NCBI GenBank assembly: GCA_946478635.1
Contig: CAMLCX010000388.1
Span: forward strand, 1 to 5,061
DNA: 5,061 nucleotides
From: an uncultured Pseudomonadota bacterium
GTDB lineage: Bacteria > Desulfobacterota_B > Binatia > UBA9968
Reading direction: 5' to 3'
Position numbers and translations under genes: made by a program. Position 1 is the stretch's first letter, and every line of letters begins with the position of its first letter. The notes under the pieces were generated by a model. The model worked only from the letters and a program-made list of their open reading frames with translations. It searched no databases and was not told where the DNA came from. This document shows, piece by piece, positions 1 to 5,061 of the stretch.

Positions 1-33
1 GGTCACACCTCGATCAACAGAGTGTCGTCAGCT
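1..33 (+). repeat. Right-hand end of a dispersed repeat, cut by the window edge
   Basis: Positions 1-31 align without gaps to 4127-4157 with 27 of 31 bases identical, and all four differences (positions 3, 5, 11, 29) are C/T or A/G transitions. Similarity fades at about 33, just where the other copy meets a start codon. Positions 1-15 are also the reverse complement of 3968-3982 at 12 of 15 bases, including the seven-base block CTCGATC, so this fragment corresponds to the outer right arm of the inverted repeat described at 3968-4157. The rest of this copy should lie to the left of the window. Both copies point the same way. The match is seen directly; calling it a mobile or dispersed element is inference. 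Confidence 0.7.
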
Positions 34-185
34 TTCCTCGTAGCATGAATAATCCGGGGCTCATTATCACCGATGGTCTCACCTCAGTTTTTTGAGCGCG
101 ATGGAATCTCCACCTTCGCCGGACCGACGGGAGTGCGGATTCCTGCTCGACTGAAACGGGAAATTTGTGCTAACCATTGGTCGAG
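34..185. other. Non-coding leader of the two-lipoprotein operon
   Basis: This stretch has stops in all three forward frames and no gene-like reading frame. GGTCTCACCTC at 75-85 repeats the first 11 bases of the window with one mismatch. CTCA (83-86) and TGAG (92-95) can form a weak 4-bp hairpin around a T run, too weak to call a terminator. I see no good sigma-70 -35/-10 pair. The GGGAA at 158-162 is the only purine-rich block before the first gene and sits 14 bases before TTG 177 and 23 before ATG 186, so it is a poor ribosome binding site for either start. The operon promoter may lie here, but I cannot place it. Confidence 0.5.
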
Positions 186-2807
186 ATGCTTGTTGCTCTT
201 TCCCACACGTTACTTTCGACTCTCATTGTCCTTACGGCATTAAACTTTTCAGGATGCAGTTCGCAGGGCGGTGGAGTTGTGGTTCAACCGCCGGTGTTCT
301 CGACGCTTCGCTCCGAAGGCTTCACGAATTTTGAAACCGAACCGGTGCGGCCTTTGGCACTTTCTTCCGATGGTCGTTATCTCTACGCTCTCAACACGGC
401 CGACGATCGTTTGGAAATTTTCGATACTCAAGGTGGACAACTGCATTCCGTCGGCGAAACCGGCGTGGGACTGCGGCCGGTGGCGATTGCTTTGCGCGGC
501 AATCAAGCCTGGATCGTCAATCACCTCTCCGATTCGGTCAGCGTGGTCGATATCAGTGATCCGACGCGGCCGCGGTTGGAGCATACGCTGCAAGTGGGTG
601 ACGAGCCGCGCGGGATCGTCATAGCGGGTCCAGGACAAAATCGAGTTTTTGTCGCCGCCGCGTATCGGGGCGATACTCTCACGCCTGGAATCGGGCGAGC
701 TCGAGTGTGGGTTTTCGATGCGACGCTGCCAAAGGCGCCGCCGAAGATTTTGACGCTGTTCGGCAGCAAGCCGAGGGCTCTGGCGGCATCTGCCGATGGT
801 CGCCAGGTTTATGCCGCCATTTATCTTTCCGGCAATGGAACCACGACGGTGTCCGGAGAAGATGCGGTTCGCCTGGGCCGGGCCGAACAAGTCTATCTCG
901 ATAAAATTCCGTACGGCGCGGTTCCCAAGCAGGGACCGATTGTACGCCGCGTCCAAGGCCGTTGGCAGGATGATCTGAACCGCGATTGGAGCGCCGCCAT
1001 TCCTTTTGACTTGCCGGATTACGATGTCTTTGTGATCGACGCAGCCGCGGAAAGGCCGAGAGTGCTGGAGTCGATCAGCAGCGTGGGGACGGTTCTTTTC
1101 AATATCGCGGTGCAACCCGGCAGCGGCGAAGTCTGGGTGTCGAACACCGAAGCGTTTAACTTCGTGCCCTATGAGCCGCGCCTGCAGGGAAAATTTGCGC
1201 AAAGTCGCATCACCCGAATATTTCCCGTGCGAGACGGCAAGCACAATGTCCGCGCGATCGATTTGAATCCGCACGTCGATCGCAACCGTGCGACCATCTC
1301 ACCAGCCGAACAAGCCCTCAGTTTGGCTCAGCCGGTGGACTTTGTATTTCAAAAGGACGGCAGCGCCGCCTACGTTGCTGCCTTCGGCTCGCAAAAAATC
1401 GGCGTGCTCGATCGCGACGGGCGGGTGATGGATCGAATTGCCGTGGGTTTTGGCCCGGGCGGCTTGGCCCTCGACTCGCGTCGACAGCGGCTCTATGTTT
1501 TGAACCATCTCGACGCAACGATCTCGGTTGTCGATTTGCGCGCGCGGCAAGTAGCCGCCACCGTACCTTTGCGCCATAACCCGACGCCGATACGTGTGAA
1601 GGAAGGACGGCGGTTCTTTTATGATGCGACGGCCACGTCGCGCCACGGTGATCTTTCCTGCGCCACTTGCCATGTGTTCGCCGATACCGATGGGTTGGCT
1701 TGGGATCTGGGCGCCCCGGCGGGGCCGCGCATCGACTATCCCGTAAAAATCAAAAACACCGGGCTGTTGGAGCCGCGGCAGTCTTTGCACCCGCTTAAGG
1801 GGCCGATGGCCACGCAAAGTCTCCGCGGCTTGGCGGGCACGGCGCCTTTTCATTGGCGTGGCGACCGCTTCGGTCTTCCGCACGCGCCGGGCGATGACGT
1901 GGCGAGCTTCAAAGATTTCAACCCCGCTTTCATCGATTTGCTTGGACGCTCCGAAGAGCTATCCCCCACGGCGATGGAGGCTTTCGCGCATTTCGTGTTG
2001 ACGATCCGCTACCCGCCCAATCCCAACCAAAGGCTCGATCGGCAGATGGAGGCTGAGGAGCGCGCCGGTTTTGAGTTTTTTACCGGCCCATTTTTGTCTG
2101 CGTCCGGCGTGGAAAACTGCGTCGGCTGCCATAGCCTACCGGCGGGAACAAATCGGTTGGTCAACTTTGAACATACGCGGGTTGGCCGCGATATGAAGAG
2201 CGCGCACTTGCGCAACGTGTACGACAAGATCGGTCGGTTCAATGCAGCGGGGCCGCAAGTCTCGGGATTTGGCCTCATCCACGACGGGACATTCGATACC
2301 GTGTTGAATTTTTTGCGCATGGAGGGATTCGTTTTCCCCGGCAAGAACGAACAAGAGAAGGATGTGATCCGCCGCCAATTGCACCACTATATCATGGCCT
2401 TCGATACGGGCATGGCGCCTGCGGTCGGGCGCCAGGTGACGATTGTGCCTAAAGCACAGGCGGATGATCTCAGATTGCTCGATATTTTGACGGAGCGATC
2501 CAGTGCCGGCGACTGTGATCTGACTGCGCGCGGTTGGGATGGTCCGTTGCAGCGAGGGTGGTTGTACCGCGACGGTGTCTATCACGGCGATCGGCGCGAC
2601 CAATCACCGCTCGATCTAGAAGCTCTGCTCGGCCATTACCGGCAGAGCGGCGAGCCGATAACTTTTACCTGTGTGCCGCCGGGCGACGGCCGGCGCAGTG
2701 CGCTGGATCGAGACCTGGACGGTTATTTAGACGGCGAGGAATTATTGGCCGGAAGCGACCCCGCCGATCCGATCAGCATTCCGGCGCTTGCGCAATTTCC
2801 GCGATGA
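186..2807 (+). CDS. Lipoprotein: YVTN beta-propeller fused to a two-haem MauG/cytochrome c peroxidase-like domain
   Basis: Predicted exported protein of 873 residues, numbered from ATG 186. TTG 177 is a possible alternative start; the frame is closed by TAA at 171. A hydrophobic segment ends in the lipobox-like F21-S-G-C24, so the protein is probably lipid-anchored, although no Lys or Arg precedes the hydrophobic core. Residues about 50-460 contain beta-propeller blades of YVTN type, clearest at 55-160 and 382-460, with a family-typical insertion at about 222-278. The two-haem part follows: CATCH at 492-496 with LRG 546-548 and FHWRGD 555-560, then CVGCH at 645-649 with LRN 675-677 and HDG 699-701. 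This CXXCH...LR(G/N)...H pattern, present twice, is that of the di-haem cytochrome c peroxidase/MauG group. The C-terminus has an EF-hand-like loop at 841-852. Outside Cys24 and the haem motifs only C777 and C829 remain, a possible disulfide. The fold is well supported. Peroxidase, oxidase or plain electron-transfer activity cannot be decided. The protein should act in the periplasm or at the cell surface and need haem attachment there. It overlaps the next gene by 4 bases. Confidence 0.9.
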   Translation: MLVALSHTLLSTLIVLTALNFSGCSSQGGGVVVQPPVFSTLRSEGFTNFETEPVRPLALSSDGRYLYALNTADDRLEIFDTQGGQLHSVGETGVGLRPVAIALRGNQAWIVNHLSDSVSVVDISDPTRPRLEHTLQVGDEPRGIVIAGPGQNRVFVAAAYRGDTLTPGIGRARVWVFDATLPKAPPKILTLFGSKPRALAASADGRQVYAAIYLSGNGTTTVSGEDAVRLGRAEQVYLDKIPYGAVPKQGPIVRRVQGRWQDDLNRDWSAAIPFDLPDYDVFVIDAAAERPRVLESISSVGTVLFNIAVQPGSGEVWVSNTEAFNFVPYEPRLQGKFAQSRITRIFPVRDGKHNVRAIDLNPHVDRNRATISPAEQALSLAQPVDFVFQKDGSAAYVAAFGSQKIGVLDRDGRVMDRIAVGFGPGGLALDSRRQRLYVLNHLDATISVVDLRARQVAATVPLRHNPTPIRVKEGRRFFYDATATSRHGDLSCATCHVFADTDGLAWDLGAPAGPRIDYPVKIKNTGLLEPRQSLHPLKGPMATQSLRGLAGTAPFHWRGDRFGLPHAPGDDVASFKDFNPAFIDLLGRSEELSPTAMEAFAHFVLTIRYPPNPNQRLDRQMEAEERAGFEFFTGPFLSASGVENCVGCHSLPAGTNRLVNFEHTRVGRDMKSAHLRNVYDKIGRFNAAGPQVSGFGLIHDGTFDTVLNFLRMEGFVFPGKNEQEKDVIRRQLHHYIMAFDTGMAPAVGRQVTIVPKAQADDLRLLDILTERSSAGDCDLTARGWDGPLQRGWLYRDGVYHGDRRDQSPLDLEALLGHYRQSGEPITFTCVPPGDGRRSALDRDLDGYLDGEELLAGSDPADPISIPALAQFPR
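2706..2741 (+). other. EF-hand-like calcium-binding loop at the end of the two-haem lipoprotein
   Basis: Codons for residues 841-852 read D-R-D-L-D-G-Y-L-D-G-E-E. This matches a 12-residue EF-hand or dockerin-type loop: Asp at loop positions 1, 3, 5 and 9, Gly at 6, a hydrophobic residue at 8 and Glu at 12. It is followed by a G-S-D-P-A-D-P segment like those after calcium-binding repeats in secreted proteins. Two-haem peroxidases of the MauG group are known to use a calcium ion between their haem domains; whether this terminal loop replaces or adds to that site is unknown. Confidence 0.7.
2804..2807 (+). promoter_or_regulatory. ATGA stop/start overlap coupling the two lipoprotein genes
   Basis: The TGA of the two-haem gene (2805-2807) shares bases with the ATG of the hydrolase gene (2804-2806). 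The bases just upstream (GCAATTTCCGCG) contain no recognisable Shine-Dalgarno sequence, so the second gene is probably translated by ribosomes that finish the first one. This overlap, with the signal peptide that starts exactly here, fixes the start choice for the hydrolase. Confidence 0.75.
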
Positions 2808-3922
2808 ATCTTAACGCCGTCACATTCACTGCGGCGCTGGTCGTGTTATCGGCCTTGGCCGCGTGCGCCGGACTGCCTGTTCATGGCCGTGTCGGTGGGC
2901 AGACGATTGATAGCCGCGTCGACTCGGAAGCGGCACGTTATTATCTTACCAACTACCTTGCCGGCAAGCGCAGTGATGCGGTGCTCGATCAGCGCATCGA
3001 TCGCATTTATCGAAACGGCTATAACGGTCTACCGGATCGCGGGCAGCTCAAACAATTGAGCGACGAATTTTCGGTGGATTTTGCGGCGCTGTATTTCGCC
3101 GACCAAATTTCGCGCATCCCCGACAATCGCGATTTTCGCGTGGCCTATAGTCAGGCGTACGAGAAATCGCGCAAGGATTTAGCTGAAGGCCGCATCCATT
3201 TACCCGCATCGGCCGAGAAGTACGAAGTGGTGTTTGTCCCCGGTTATCTTTATAAGCGCCATACAATCACCGGCGCGGATCTTGCCGCTGCGCGCGCTGC
3301 ATTAAAGTTCGCCGGTTTCGCGCAGTATTTTGTCGAAACGATCGAGGACGGGGCGATCGAAGCGAATGCAGAGATCGTGGCCGCCGCGATTCAGTCGCGC
3401 TCCCGGACCGGTCGCCGCTTGATTCTGGTGAGCGTGAGCAAGTCCGGAGCAGAGGTTGCGCACGCACTCACCCGCATGGGACCCGATGAAACGCGGGGAG
3501 TCGCCGCTTGGGTGAATATCTCCGGGACGCTGCAAGGCAGCCCACTGGCGGATCAGCGGCTAGCCCAATTGGAAGATCTGATTGGTAAAGTCGACGTGGC
3601 CGGTGTGGAAAGCTTGAGCACGTCGCGCAGCCGCCAACGCTTTAACAACGTCCGGATCCCGCGGCATTTGCTCGTGGTCAATTATATCGGCATTCCGCTA
3701 ACCGGAAGCATCTCGATGTTGGCGCGCAGTGGCTACGCGGATTTGCGCGCGCACGGACCCAATGATGGGCTTTCCTTGTTGTCGGACTTGATTGTTCCGG
3801 ACGGCTTGACTTTGGCTGAGATCGGCCGAGATCATTTTTTGCTCGACGATCAGGTGGATGCAGTAACCGTTGCCTTGGCCCTGACGGTTATTCATTACGT
3901 CGAGCACGGGAGGGCCGCCTGA
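2804..3922 (+). CDS. Lipoprotein with alpha/beta-hydrolase fold, lipase/esterase-like
   Basis: Predicted 372-residue exported lipoprotein. The N-terminus is a hydrophobic signal peptide ending in the good lipobox L18-A-A-C21; as in its neighbour, no Lys or Arg lies before the core. Residues about 35-135 are polar, probably helical, and rich in charged residues. The hydrolase part starts with a beta strand and V-P-G-Y (145-148), a likely oxyanion-loop position. The nucleophile elbow is S-V-S-K-S-G (210-215), equivalent to G-H-S-K-G-G in many lipases, with Ser212 as proposed nucleophile. N-I-S-G-T-L-Q-G-S-P follows the next strand. Asp321 in P-N-D-G and His344 in R-D-H-F complete a likely triad in the right order. 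The elbow lacks both glycines of the usual G-X-S-X-G, so activity is probable but not proven. The frame stays open upstream to an ATG at 2534, but that lies inside the first gene and would bury the signal peptide. The substrate is unknown; lipids or esters in the envelope or medium are the natural guess. Confidence 0.85.
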   Translation: MNLNAVTFTAALVVLSALAACAGLPVHGRVGGQTIDSRVDSEAARYYLTNYLAGKRSDAVLDQRIDRIYRNGYNGLPDRGQLKQLSDEFSVDFAALYFADQISRIPDNRDFRVAYSQAYEKSRKDLAEGRIHLPASAEKYEVVFVPGYLYKRHTITGADLAAARAALKFAGFAQYFVETIEDGAIEANAEIVAAAIQSRSRTGRRLILVSVSKSGAEVAHALTRMGPDETRGVAAWVNISGTLQGSPLADQRLAQLEDLIGKVDVAGVESLSTSRSRQRFNNVRIPRHLLVVNYIGIPLTGSISMLARSGYADLRAHGPNDGLSLLSDLIVPDGLTLAEIGRDHFLLDDQVDAVTVALALTVIHYVEHGRAA

Positions 3923-3967
3923 TGGAAGCTCCTCAAAGCTAGGCCTGATTACGGGCGGTAATGCTGC

Positions 3968-4157
3968 GATCGAGCTGCAACCCTTACGGAACGAAGGCAA
4001 AGCAGTTGTGCCTTGAAAATGCGAGCGGGGCGAGTTGCCCATGAGGTCGGCAGCGAAAAGGTTGAACATCGTGCCGGGCGGTGAGACTTAAGTGAAACAT
4101 TCGCGCCGTTGCCTTCGTTCCTCCAGGGCCGCACCTTGATCAACAGAGTGTCGTTAG
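3968..4157 (+). repeat. Dispersed element with 33-bp imperfect terminal inverted repeats and internal hairpins (MITE-like or structured RNA)
   Basis: The left arm 3968-4000 is the reverse complement of 4109-4141 at 26 of 33 positions with no gaps. The inner 13 bases (3988-4000 and 4109-4121) match perfectly, followed outward by a CCCT/AGGG block and a GATC-G-AG/CT-T-GATC block. Between the arms lie GGGC-gagtt-GCCC (4028-4040), GGCA-g-CGA...TCGTGCC (4049-4075) and the palindrome ACTTAAGT (4086-4093). A small hairpin ATTAC-gggcg-GTAAT sits just outside at 3948-3962. The right end, including 16 bases beyond the arm, recurs at window positions 1-31. I found no target-site duplication, no transposase frame and no T-run terminator. 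A small non-autonomous mobile element or a multi-branched RNA closed by a long stem both fit. It fills most of the 237-base gap after the hydrolase gene and ends about two bases before the next start codon; the remainder, 3923-3967, shows nothing else. Confidence 0.7.
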
Positions 4158-4159
4158 TT

Positions 4160-5061
4160 ATGAACGAAATCCGCATTATTGACACGACGCTGCGCGACGG
4201 CCAGCTGAGCCTGTGGGCGCTCGGGATGAAAACCGGAGCGATGCTGGCCATCGCCGAACAGATGGATCGATGCGGTTTCGAATCCATGGAGTTTTTCGGC
4301 TTCGCCGGTTACATCAAAATGGTCCGCGAGCACAAGGAAAATCCGTGGGACTGGATGGCGATGGGCGCGAAGAAATTCCGCCGCACCCGGCTGCGTTATC
4401 ACGGTGGGCTGGCCACGGGATTCGAGAAAATACCGCGCTCGGTGCGCTTGCTGATGATCGAGCGCGTGATCGCGCACGGCATCACGCTCACGCGCTCTTC
4501 GGATCCGTGGAACGACTATGAAGCCGCGGCGGTCGAGATCGACACGCTCAAAAAATTGGGCATGGATGTCGTCATCAACATCATTTATTCAGTCTCACCG
4601 CGCCACACCGACGAGTACTATGCCGAGAGGGCGCGCCAAGCCGCGGCGATCAAGCCGTATCGCATTTGCTTCAAGGACGTGGGCGGATTGCTGACGCCCG
4701 ATCGAGCACGCGCCTTGATTTCACTGATTCAGAAAAATGTCGGACACGTTCCGCTCGAGTTTCACGCGCACTGCAACAACGGGTTGGCGCCGTTTAATTA
4801 TCTCGAAGCGATCAAGCTCGGCCTTAGGACGCTGCACACCGCGATTCCGCCCCTCGCCAATGGTTCCTCACAGCCGTCGATATTTAATATTGCGTCCAAT
4901 GCCAGCGCGCTCGGATTTAAGCCGCTCGTCGATCTTGAAGCAATCAAGCCGGTTGAAAATCACTTTACCTATATTGCCAAACGAGAGGGCCATCCCCTCG
5001 GCGCGCCGCGCGAGTACGACCACGGGCAGTATTTGCATCAAGTGCCCGGCGGCATGATCTC
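4160..5061 (+). CDS. Carboxyltransferase of the pyruvate/oxaloacetate carboxylase (DRE-TIM) type, 3' end missing
   Basis: The first 300 codons are present and the frame is open to the window edge. The product is a cytoplasmic TIM-barrel enzyme like the carboxyltransferase part of pyruvate carboxylase or the OadA subunit, which moves CO2 between biotin and an acyl acceptor. D8-T-T-L-R-D13 is the classic first-strand motif. K172 in C-F-K-D-V-G-G-L-L is at the position of the carboxylated metal-binding lysine. H202-A-H204 is the metal-binding HXH pair 30 residues later. G-S-S-Q-P-S (235-240) and Y-L-H-Q-V-P-G-G near the edge match later family blocks. Family members usually run to about 450-600 residues, sometimes with a biotin domain beyond the part seen here. 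Where pyruvate carboxylases have D-A-H-Q-S-L this protein has D-G-Q-L-S-L, and Thr of the T-S-Q-P-S block is Ser236, so the acceptor may not be pyruvate. ATG 4160 is chosen because it places D-T-T-L-R-D at the usual distance from the N-terminus. GTG 4148 and TTG 4136 are in frame but lie inside the repeat. The ribosome binding site is weak (AGAG at 4145-4148). Confidence 0.88.
   Translation, partial: MNEIRIIDTTLRDGQLSLWALGMKTGAMLAIAEQMDRCGFESMEFFGFAGYIKMVREHKENPWDWMAMGAKKFRRTRLRYHGGLATGFEKIPRSVRLLMIERVIAHGITLTRSSDPWNDYEAAAVEIDTLKKLGMDVVINIIYSVSPRHTDEYYAERARQAAAIKPYRICFKDVGGLLTPDRARALISLIQKNVGHVPLEFHAHCNNGLAPFNYLEAIKLGLRTLHTAIPPLANGSSQPSIFNIASNASALGFKPLVDLEAIKPVENHFTYIAKREGHPLGAPREYDHGQYLHQVPGGMI

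Follow-up and report, generated by a model that had tools for sequence, protein, structure and literature searches.

A degraded MITE with IS1380-type ends and a hairpin core that is probably selected as an RNA in uncultured bacteria

Introduction

What is a long inverted repeat doing between a "hydrolase" gene and a carboxyltransferase gene in an uncultured bacterium? We analyzed a stretch of DNA of 5,061 nucleotides (the window) in which such a repeat had been noticed from the sequence. The initial annotation proposed that it was either a small non-autonomous transposable element (MITE) or a structured non-coding RNA closed by a long stem. In this case, the two readings are not exclusive, and both are supported by comparison with relatives from the same group of bacteria. 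Our account, to which we assign a probability of about 0.68, is that the repeat belongs to a degraded MITE with IS1380-type ends, that the core of this MITE is independent of the ends, and that the minus strand of the core folds as a selected RNA.

Results

The inverted repeat is part of a decayed element

The two arms of the repeat (Table 1) are 33 nt each and lie 108 nt apart. They are complementary at 26 of 33 positions without any gaps, and they include a perfect inner core of 13 bases. In 1000 dinucleotide-preserving shuffles of the 237-nt intergenic stretch, the best 33-nt inverted match had 18.1 paired positions on average and 23 at most, and none reached 26, so the repeat is indeed beyond chance. 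A simple scan of positions 3900-4250 found no terminator-like sites, in line with the initial annotation, which had seen no terminator-like U tract, and no sigma-70-like promoters.

The arms are only the inner part of a larger element, which extends from about 3943 to 4157. A covariance model of this element (described below) matches positions 3968-4149 on the minus strand with 151 bits, with the window itself being one of the model's 26 sequences. Complete relatives continue for another 27 nt to their right terminus. This right end has been lost from the window copy next to the start codon at 4160, and the copy is probably immobile. An ATG is present at the equivalent position in 13 of the best 14 relatives of the carboxyltransferase (65-85% identity). 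Two copies of the element are visible in the window, since the right end of another lies at 1-58. Positions 1-31 repeat 4127-4157 (87% identity over 31 nt), and the intact terminus GAATAATCCGGG is found at 47-58.

Table 1. Features of the element and its surroundings in the window.
Feature	Position	Strand	Basis or remark
Decayed MITE copy	3943..4157	- (strand that would fold as RNA)	alignment with complete copies
CTAG, left target-site sequence	3939..3942	.	precedes the left end, as in relatives; the right duplicate is gone along with the right end
Decayed left terminal repeat GCCTGATTACGG	3943..3954	+	7/12 match to CCCGGATTATTC
Left stem arm	3968..4000	.	complementarity and covariation
3x3 internal loop, one side	3985..3987	-	column counts; relatives mostly TCC on +, GGA on -
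Loop motif, window version	3998..4018	.	alignment and motif scoring in relatives; CAATNGGCCNNTGCCTTGAGG in relatives, here a partial match (TGCCTTGA kept)
Right stem arm	4109..4141	.	complementarity and covariation
3x3 internal loop, other side	4122..4124	-	column counts; TCC on +, GGA on -
Carboxyltransferase gene (HMGL-like, pyruvate carboxylase subunit B type)	4160..5059	+	open at the window's end; start is 2 nt past the preserved element
Right end of a second copy, cut at the window's edge	1..58	.	intact right terminal repeat at 47-58

As for the upstream genes, 204-2807 (plus strand) encodes a large protein that combines beta-propeller repeats with a MauG-type di-haem cytochrome c peroxidase part and is weakly similar to subunits of hydrazine synthase. 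The "hydrolase" (2804-3922, plus strand) has no match in Pfam or NCBIfam at E <= 1e-3. It has relatives in 2 of 25 genomes of the family described below, twice side by side in G007; a syntenic empty site was not found.

Complete relatives have the marks of a MITE

A 22-base pattern from the shared right end matched five contigs of species representatives: four from Deltaproteobacteria bacterium CoA_1_bin.89 (a MAG) and one from C24_metabat.bin.121_sub. A search with window 3930-4165 as the query found CoA_1_bin.89 (the first matched genome; hereafter G001) to have 32 DNA matches with E <= 1e-3, and there were matches in 6 of the 25 genomes of its family. In the aligned copies, complete relatives are mostly 240-260 bp, with the ends CCCGGATTATTC...GAATAATCCGGG and CTAG flanks. 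Searching for these ends with at most one mismatch gave 49 matches in G001 and 18 in a second genome (G002), compared to 0 and 0 for the reversed pattern. The end pattern is present in 20 of 24 genomes of the family, and the control matched once in each of four genomes. Some genomes have tens of copies; the highest count of model matches per genome was 76, which equals the number scored.

To describe the flanks, we considered candidate elements of 180-300 bp with both 12-bp ends and no more than 4 mismatches in total (n = 76). The 4-bp flanks are identical in 44 of the 76 (37 CTAG, 3 ATAG, 2 TTAG, and 2 CTAA), where 29.5 would be expected without pairing because CTAG dominates. Among the 20 candidates without CTAG on either side, 7 have identical flanks, versus 2.65 expected. 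The relatives insert with 4-bp duplications, mostly at CTAG. They are short, they have terminal inverted repeats and 4-bp target duplications, and they are present in many dispersed copies, which adjoin many different genes. The many copies, the defined ends, and the target duplications bear out the proposal of a MITE, and the inverted repeat in the window forms the stem of one such MITE, of the IS1380-end type and now degraded. It was also correct that no coding frame explains the repeat: no reading frame is open in all 26 of the elements that we aligned (see below), most of which have stops in all six frames, while some have one open frame.

Several other features of the insertions are worth recording. 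In copies from several genomes (for example, L014, L031, L039, L043, L148, and L152; not counted exactly), the core lies about 25 nt from the end of the neighboring gene, as if the TAG of CTAG were the gene's stop codon, kept on insertion. In G016 (L122, 119-390), an element was apparently inserted in the end of another: 30 nt into the first, there is a further left end with CTAG. Six contigs of G012 (L054-L059), a good assembly, start within the element, and they do so at three recurring positions; breaks of this kind are expected at repeats. There was no match to the element in plasmids, and viral matches were limited to a 17-base pattern and other short stretches.

A broken IS1380 element with matching ends

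In G007, we identified a 1596-bp element that has the same ends as the MITE, with CTAG on both sides. Its first reading frame matches DDE_Tnp_1_4 from Pfam (314 bits) and the IS1380 transposase family from NCBIfam (247 bits, with a cut-off of 180). The transposase frame is broken, and this protein is the only match at E <= 1e-20 in 25 genomes (that is, the element is found in 1 of 25). Because the IS1380 element is found only in G007 and its frame is broken, the active source was not seen. The IS1380 genes of G001 and G002 were also considered as partners and were rejected, as their loci lack a pair of matching ends. From the ends, we infer that the MITE would have been moved in trans by a transposase of the IS1380 family.

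About 7 of 34 non-redundant elements with IS1380-type ends have a replaced centre (by eye), and there are short elements with such ends and no such core (L068, 90 bp, and L104, 132 bp). Given these elements, the core is not required for the IS1380-type ends (type 1) to move; at most, it helps.

The arms change together

We aligned 26 elements that were found by their ends or by DNA similarity (alignment A1). The alignment was made without using structure, and its members were chosen for an alignable core. Eleven named end-pair artefacts or short elements, as well as lengths outside 180-300, had been dropped before the set of 34 non-redundant elements was formed. A1 leaves out 11 of these 34, which were truncated, had a replaced centre, carried an insertion in one arm, or were longer on the right; L003, L101, and L109 were added.

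Among these 26 elements, 24 of 29 stem pairs changed on both sides. The corresponding number was 11.3 for shuffles (none of 500 as high) and 5-7 for slid controls. There were 79 double-changed cells, versus 25.4 in shuffles (again, 0 of 500 as high). More broadly, none of the 500 shuffles was as high for paired cells, double changes, or the covariation score. The number of further pair types was not exceptional (80 of 500 shuffles). With six distant copies added, 23 of 24 pairs changed on both sides and 92.8% of cells were paired, compared to 12.8 pairs and 74.1% in shuffles; here, the structure was derived from the same alignment. In a wider set of 60 elements, 57 had at least 15 of 30 pairs, and the mean was 24.3. 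The subfamilies differ strongly in their paired sequence (GATCGAGG, GCCTGAGG, and GTCCGAGG).

This paired change of the arms suggests that one strand folds as an RNA, and that this RNA is carried by transposons with different ends (see below). No covarying helix was found inside the loop. Also, the covariance models of Rfam did not match the window's element (E <= 5) or the cores of 10 loci (E <= 1).

The minus strand is the likely RNA

If the stem is in an RNA, then G.U pairs on the folding strand would appear as mismatches of one kind. We counted mismatches in a strand-neutral alignment of arm to arm. The residual mismatches in the stem are more often A.C than G.T on the window's plus strand, which corresponds to G.U on the minus strand. 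We saw 100 A.C and 16 G.T in 48 end-selected elements (37 versus 4 if non-redundant; 14 elements versus 1), 197 versus 48 in 93 elements of the R1 model set, and 66 versus 6 in 53 distant copies. Some bias is possible in the last two sets, because they were found with minus-strand models. Elements with fewer than 15 paired positions were excluded, which left 48 of 60, 93 of 94, and 53 of 55 for the arm-to-arm count. For a count by column, this left 57 of 60 and 89 of 90, after four secondary or weak matches of the 94 in the model set were dropped. By column, the end-selected set had 15 versus 8 (p = 0.21) and the model set had 19 versus 6 (p = 0.015), and three stem positions supply much of the strand bias. 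Single-copy substitutions do not clearly show the bias, as they differ from the rest of the element only at p = 0.10.

The stem is interrupted by a 3x3 internal loop, which is GGA/GGA on the minus strand and TCC/TCC on the plus strand. RNAalifold favors the minus strand (-32.5 versus -25.5, and -35.8 versus -24.0 in a second alignment). Individual folds beat shuffles on both strands, with a mean z of -4.9 on plus and -5.5 on minus. Together, these observations make an RNA from the minus strand likely. The proposal of a structured RNA closed by a long stem is borne out in part, with strong compensatory change in the stem and a G.U-type strand bias that is strong per element, weaker by column, and not clear in single-copy changes.

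The core is also found between other terminal repeats

To describe the distribution of the core, we used two minus-strand models: R1, from 26 sequences, and R2, which adds six distant copies. At E <= 1e-3, R1 had matches in 23 of the order's 35 genomes, made up of 22 of the family's 25 genomes and one of the 10 others. Several of the weaker matches lacked IS1380-type ends. At E <= 1e-5, R2 had matches in 24 of the 148 class genomes. All but one belong to the family (23 of its 25 genomes), and the exception is G026, which is from another family of the same order. A few of the 24 are doubtful: in G008, the matched sequence is a tandem repeat that lacks the loop motif; the match in G013 is borderline; and G014 and G018 were counted without detailed examination.

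We examined the flanks of 37 distant copies. Four have CTAATACAAACG terminal repeats (type 2: L278, L286, L288, and L159, from G017, G020, and G003), and four have AGTTCATTAGTA-like terminal repeats (type 3: L163, L289, L296, and L279, from G026 and G022). The scan had no shuffle control, and we trust these ends because the same sequence recurs in different genomes. By eye, L293 and L285 resemble decayed members of these two types. The remaining 27 copies have no convincing terminal repeat; isolated scan matches of 10-11 bases in L318 and L304 illustrate what chance can produce. Copies from G021 have one flank in common, which is partly true of those from G004.

The loop motif CAATNGGCCNNTGCCTTGAGG ties these copies together. 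Out of 18 positions, three of five type 2 copies score 16-18 and two score 9-10 (in L159, the motif was cut by trimming and is visible in its sequence). Five type 3 copies score 13-16, nine copies from G021 score 16-18, and six from G004 score 15-16. For shuffled controls, the mean is 9-10 and the 99th percentile is 11-13. From these scores, the core is homologous across the types of ends, and is not just another hairpin. The core (33-nt arms, the 3x3 internal loop, and a loop of roughly 100 nt that holds one conserved motif) is also found between at least two other kinds of terminal repeat.

We noticed three other cases. L277 (G020) and L304 (G026), which are from different families, have a common right flank that fits none of the three types of ends, and this is possibly a fourth carrier. 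In G013, a TPP riboswitch (L155, 1307-1415, minus strand) is close to one distant copy of the core. Finally, the weak model matches at L162 (1480-1900, in G008) and L281 (1501-1875) are in a tandem repeat whose units are about 200 nt long and partly palindromic (GGGGCAACCCC); as it lacks the loop motif, it is probably a different repeat.

Discussion

Selection, protein binding, or mutation?

Differences that are confined to a single copy are rarer in the stem than in the loop. Per site, they are 0.079 versus 0.118, 0.019 versus 0.044, and 0.106 versus 0.135 in three subfamilies. In the two largest subfamilies, these stem changes are mostly one-sided (68 versus 9 double changes, and 11 versus 2); the third has 19 versus 15. 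We read the rarer and mostly one-sided changes as selection on the lineages that multiply and decay of the single copies.

The left terminal repeat has 0.076, 0.019, and 0.046 such differences per site, so the arms change as slowly as this DNA end in two of the three subfamilies. This could be explained if these were ordinary IS1380 MITEs, with arms that are subterminal protein-binding sites in DNA, which change together with the preference of the transposase, and with no role for RNA. The IS1380-type ends and the transposase also fit. But protein-binding sites would predict neither the excess of A.C over G.T, nor that the arms differ in a conserved way at the 3x3 loop, nor that other terminal repeats enclose the same core, and we consider this explanation unlikely.

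Another potential source of paired changes is mutation. Quasi-palindrome correction by template switching is known from bacteria: switching between the arms during replication would perfect the palindrome by changing both sides at once, and would yield double changes without any function. However, the internal loop and the fixed mismatches persist, and as noted above, new changes are mostly one-sided in the two largest subfamilies. This makes mutation a quite improbable cause.

Finally, there is almost no chance that the element is immobile, fixed at this site, and serves the carboxyltransferase gene as a structured leader or regulatory RNA: it does lie directly before the start codon, and on each strand, the fold of 3950-4165 is somewhat better than that of shuffled sequences (z = -2.0 and -3.3), but the dispersed copies are beside many different genes, and the element has no match in Rfam. 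As a candidate leader it was rejected, since the R1 core was in 0 of 25 loci of the gene's relatives, and none was seen by eye in 14 upstream stretches. (For the relatives of both neighboring genes, the core was in 0 of 28 loci, which include these 25.) Among 45 copies, 23 of them from G001, tandem neighbor genes run with the window's plus strand in 18 cases versus 3. Because 40 further copies gave 14 versus 10 (L263 was already in the first set as L167), we discarded the orientation towards neighboring genes.

We therefore return to a MITE whose core is selected as an RNA, and propose how it might work. In intact copies, the window's minus strand would be transcribed and would fold into a long hairpin. 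The pairing would be kept by selection on lineages that are still multiplying, if, once folded, the RNA favors the element's spread or renders its insertions tolerable. Single copies, such as the one in the window, would decay. More speculatively, the persisting unit might be the RNA (about 155-185 nt, in one bacterial family and one neighbor) and not the transposon. In that case, it would have been passed between IS1380-, CTAATACAAACG-, and AGTTCATTAGTA-type ends, and it would reach tens of copies because the RNA promotes or protects its own spread. This extension is possible, and we hold it tentatively.

Comparison with known elements

In MITEs generally, the ends are conserved and the middle varies. 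Here, the middle is common and the ends differ, and the middle bears the marks of a strand that must fold. The question of whether selection can act on small selfish elements as RNAs thereby becomes testable, and the covariance models can be used in transcript searches in a group of uncultured bacteria.

The MITE shares its ends of 12-15 bp and its CTAG flanks with the IS1380 family, as represented by the element with a transposase in G007. Unlike that element, it has no transposase gene, and beyond the ends, we saw no similarity between the two (by eye).

The hairpin MITEs of bacteria (ERIC/IRU, YPAL, Correia/NEMIS, and RUP) are, according to PMC2229807, small and transposase-less, with terminal repeats and target duplications, and with transcripts that are predicted to form long stem-loops. 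The element described here shares all of these features, with a stem-loop that is likewise predicted. It is longer, at about 240-260 bp instead of about 100-200 (PMC2229807). It also differs in that it has IS1380-type ends, in that its core is common to elements with unrelated ends, and in that paired changes and a strand bias were measured here. By description, its ends and its host group set it apart from ERIC, YPAL, and Correia (PMC2229807).

MITEPye1 of Paracoccus yeei, according to PMC11578231, has IS1182-type ends, 1-3 copies per chromosome, and a predicted long RNA stem-loop. Both are MITEs whose terminal repeats match an established IS family and whose RNA is predicted to form a long stem-loop; ours has IS1380-type ends instead and reaches tens of copies. 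Another point of comparison is the bridge RNA of IS110 (PMC11208160), which is also a structured RNA (in our case, a predicted one) encoded within a small mobile element. Unlike IS110, our element has no recombinase gene or sign of guiding, and its type 1 ends are those of a DDE transposase family.

We found no description of this element in our searches of the open-licence literature. It behaves as a hairpin-forming bacterial MITE, and by its ends, it belongs with IS1380. What distinguishes it is that one core is found across different ends, with the covariation and the strand bias that are expected of an RNA.
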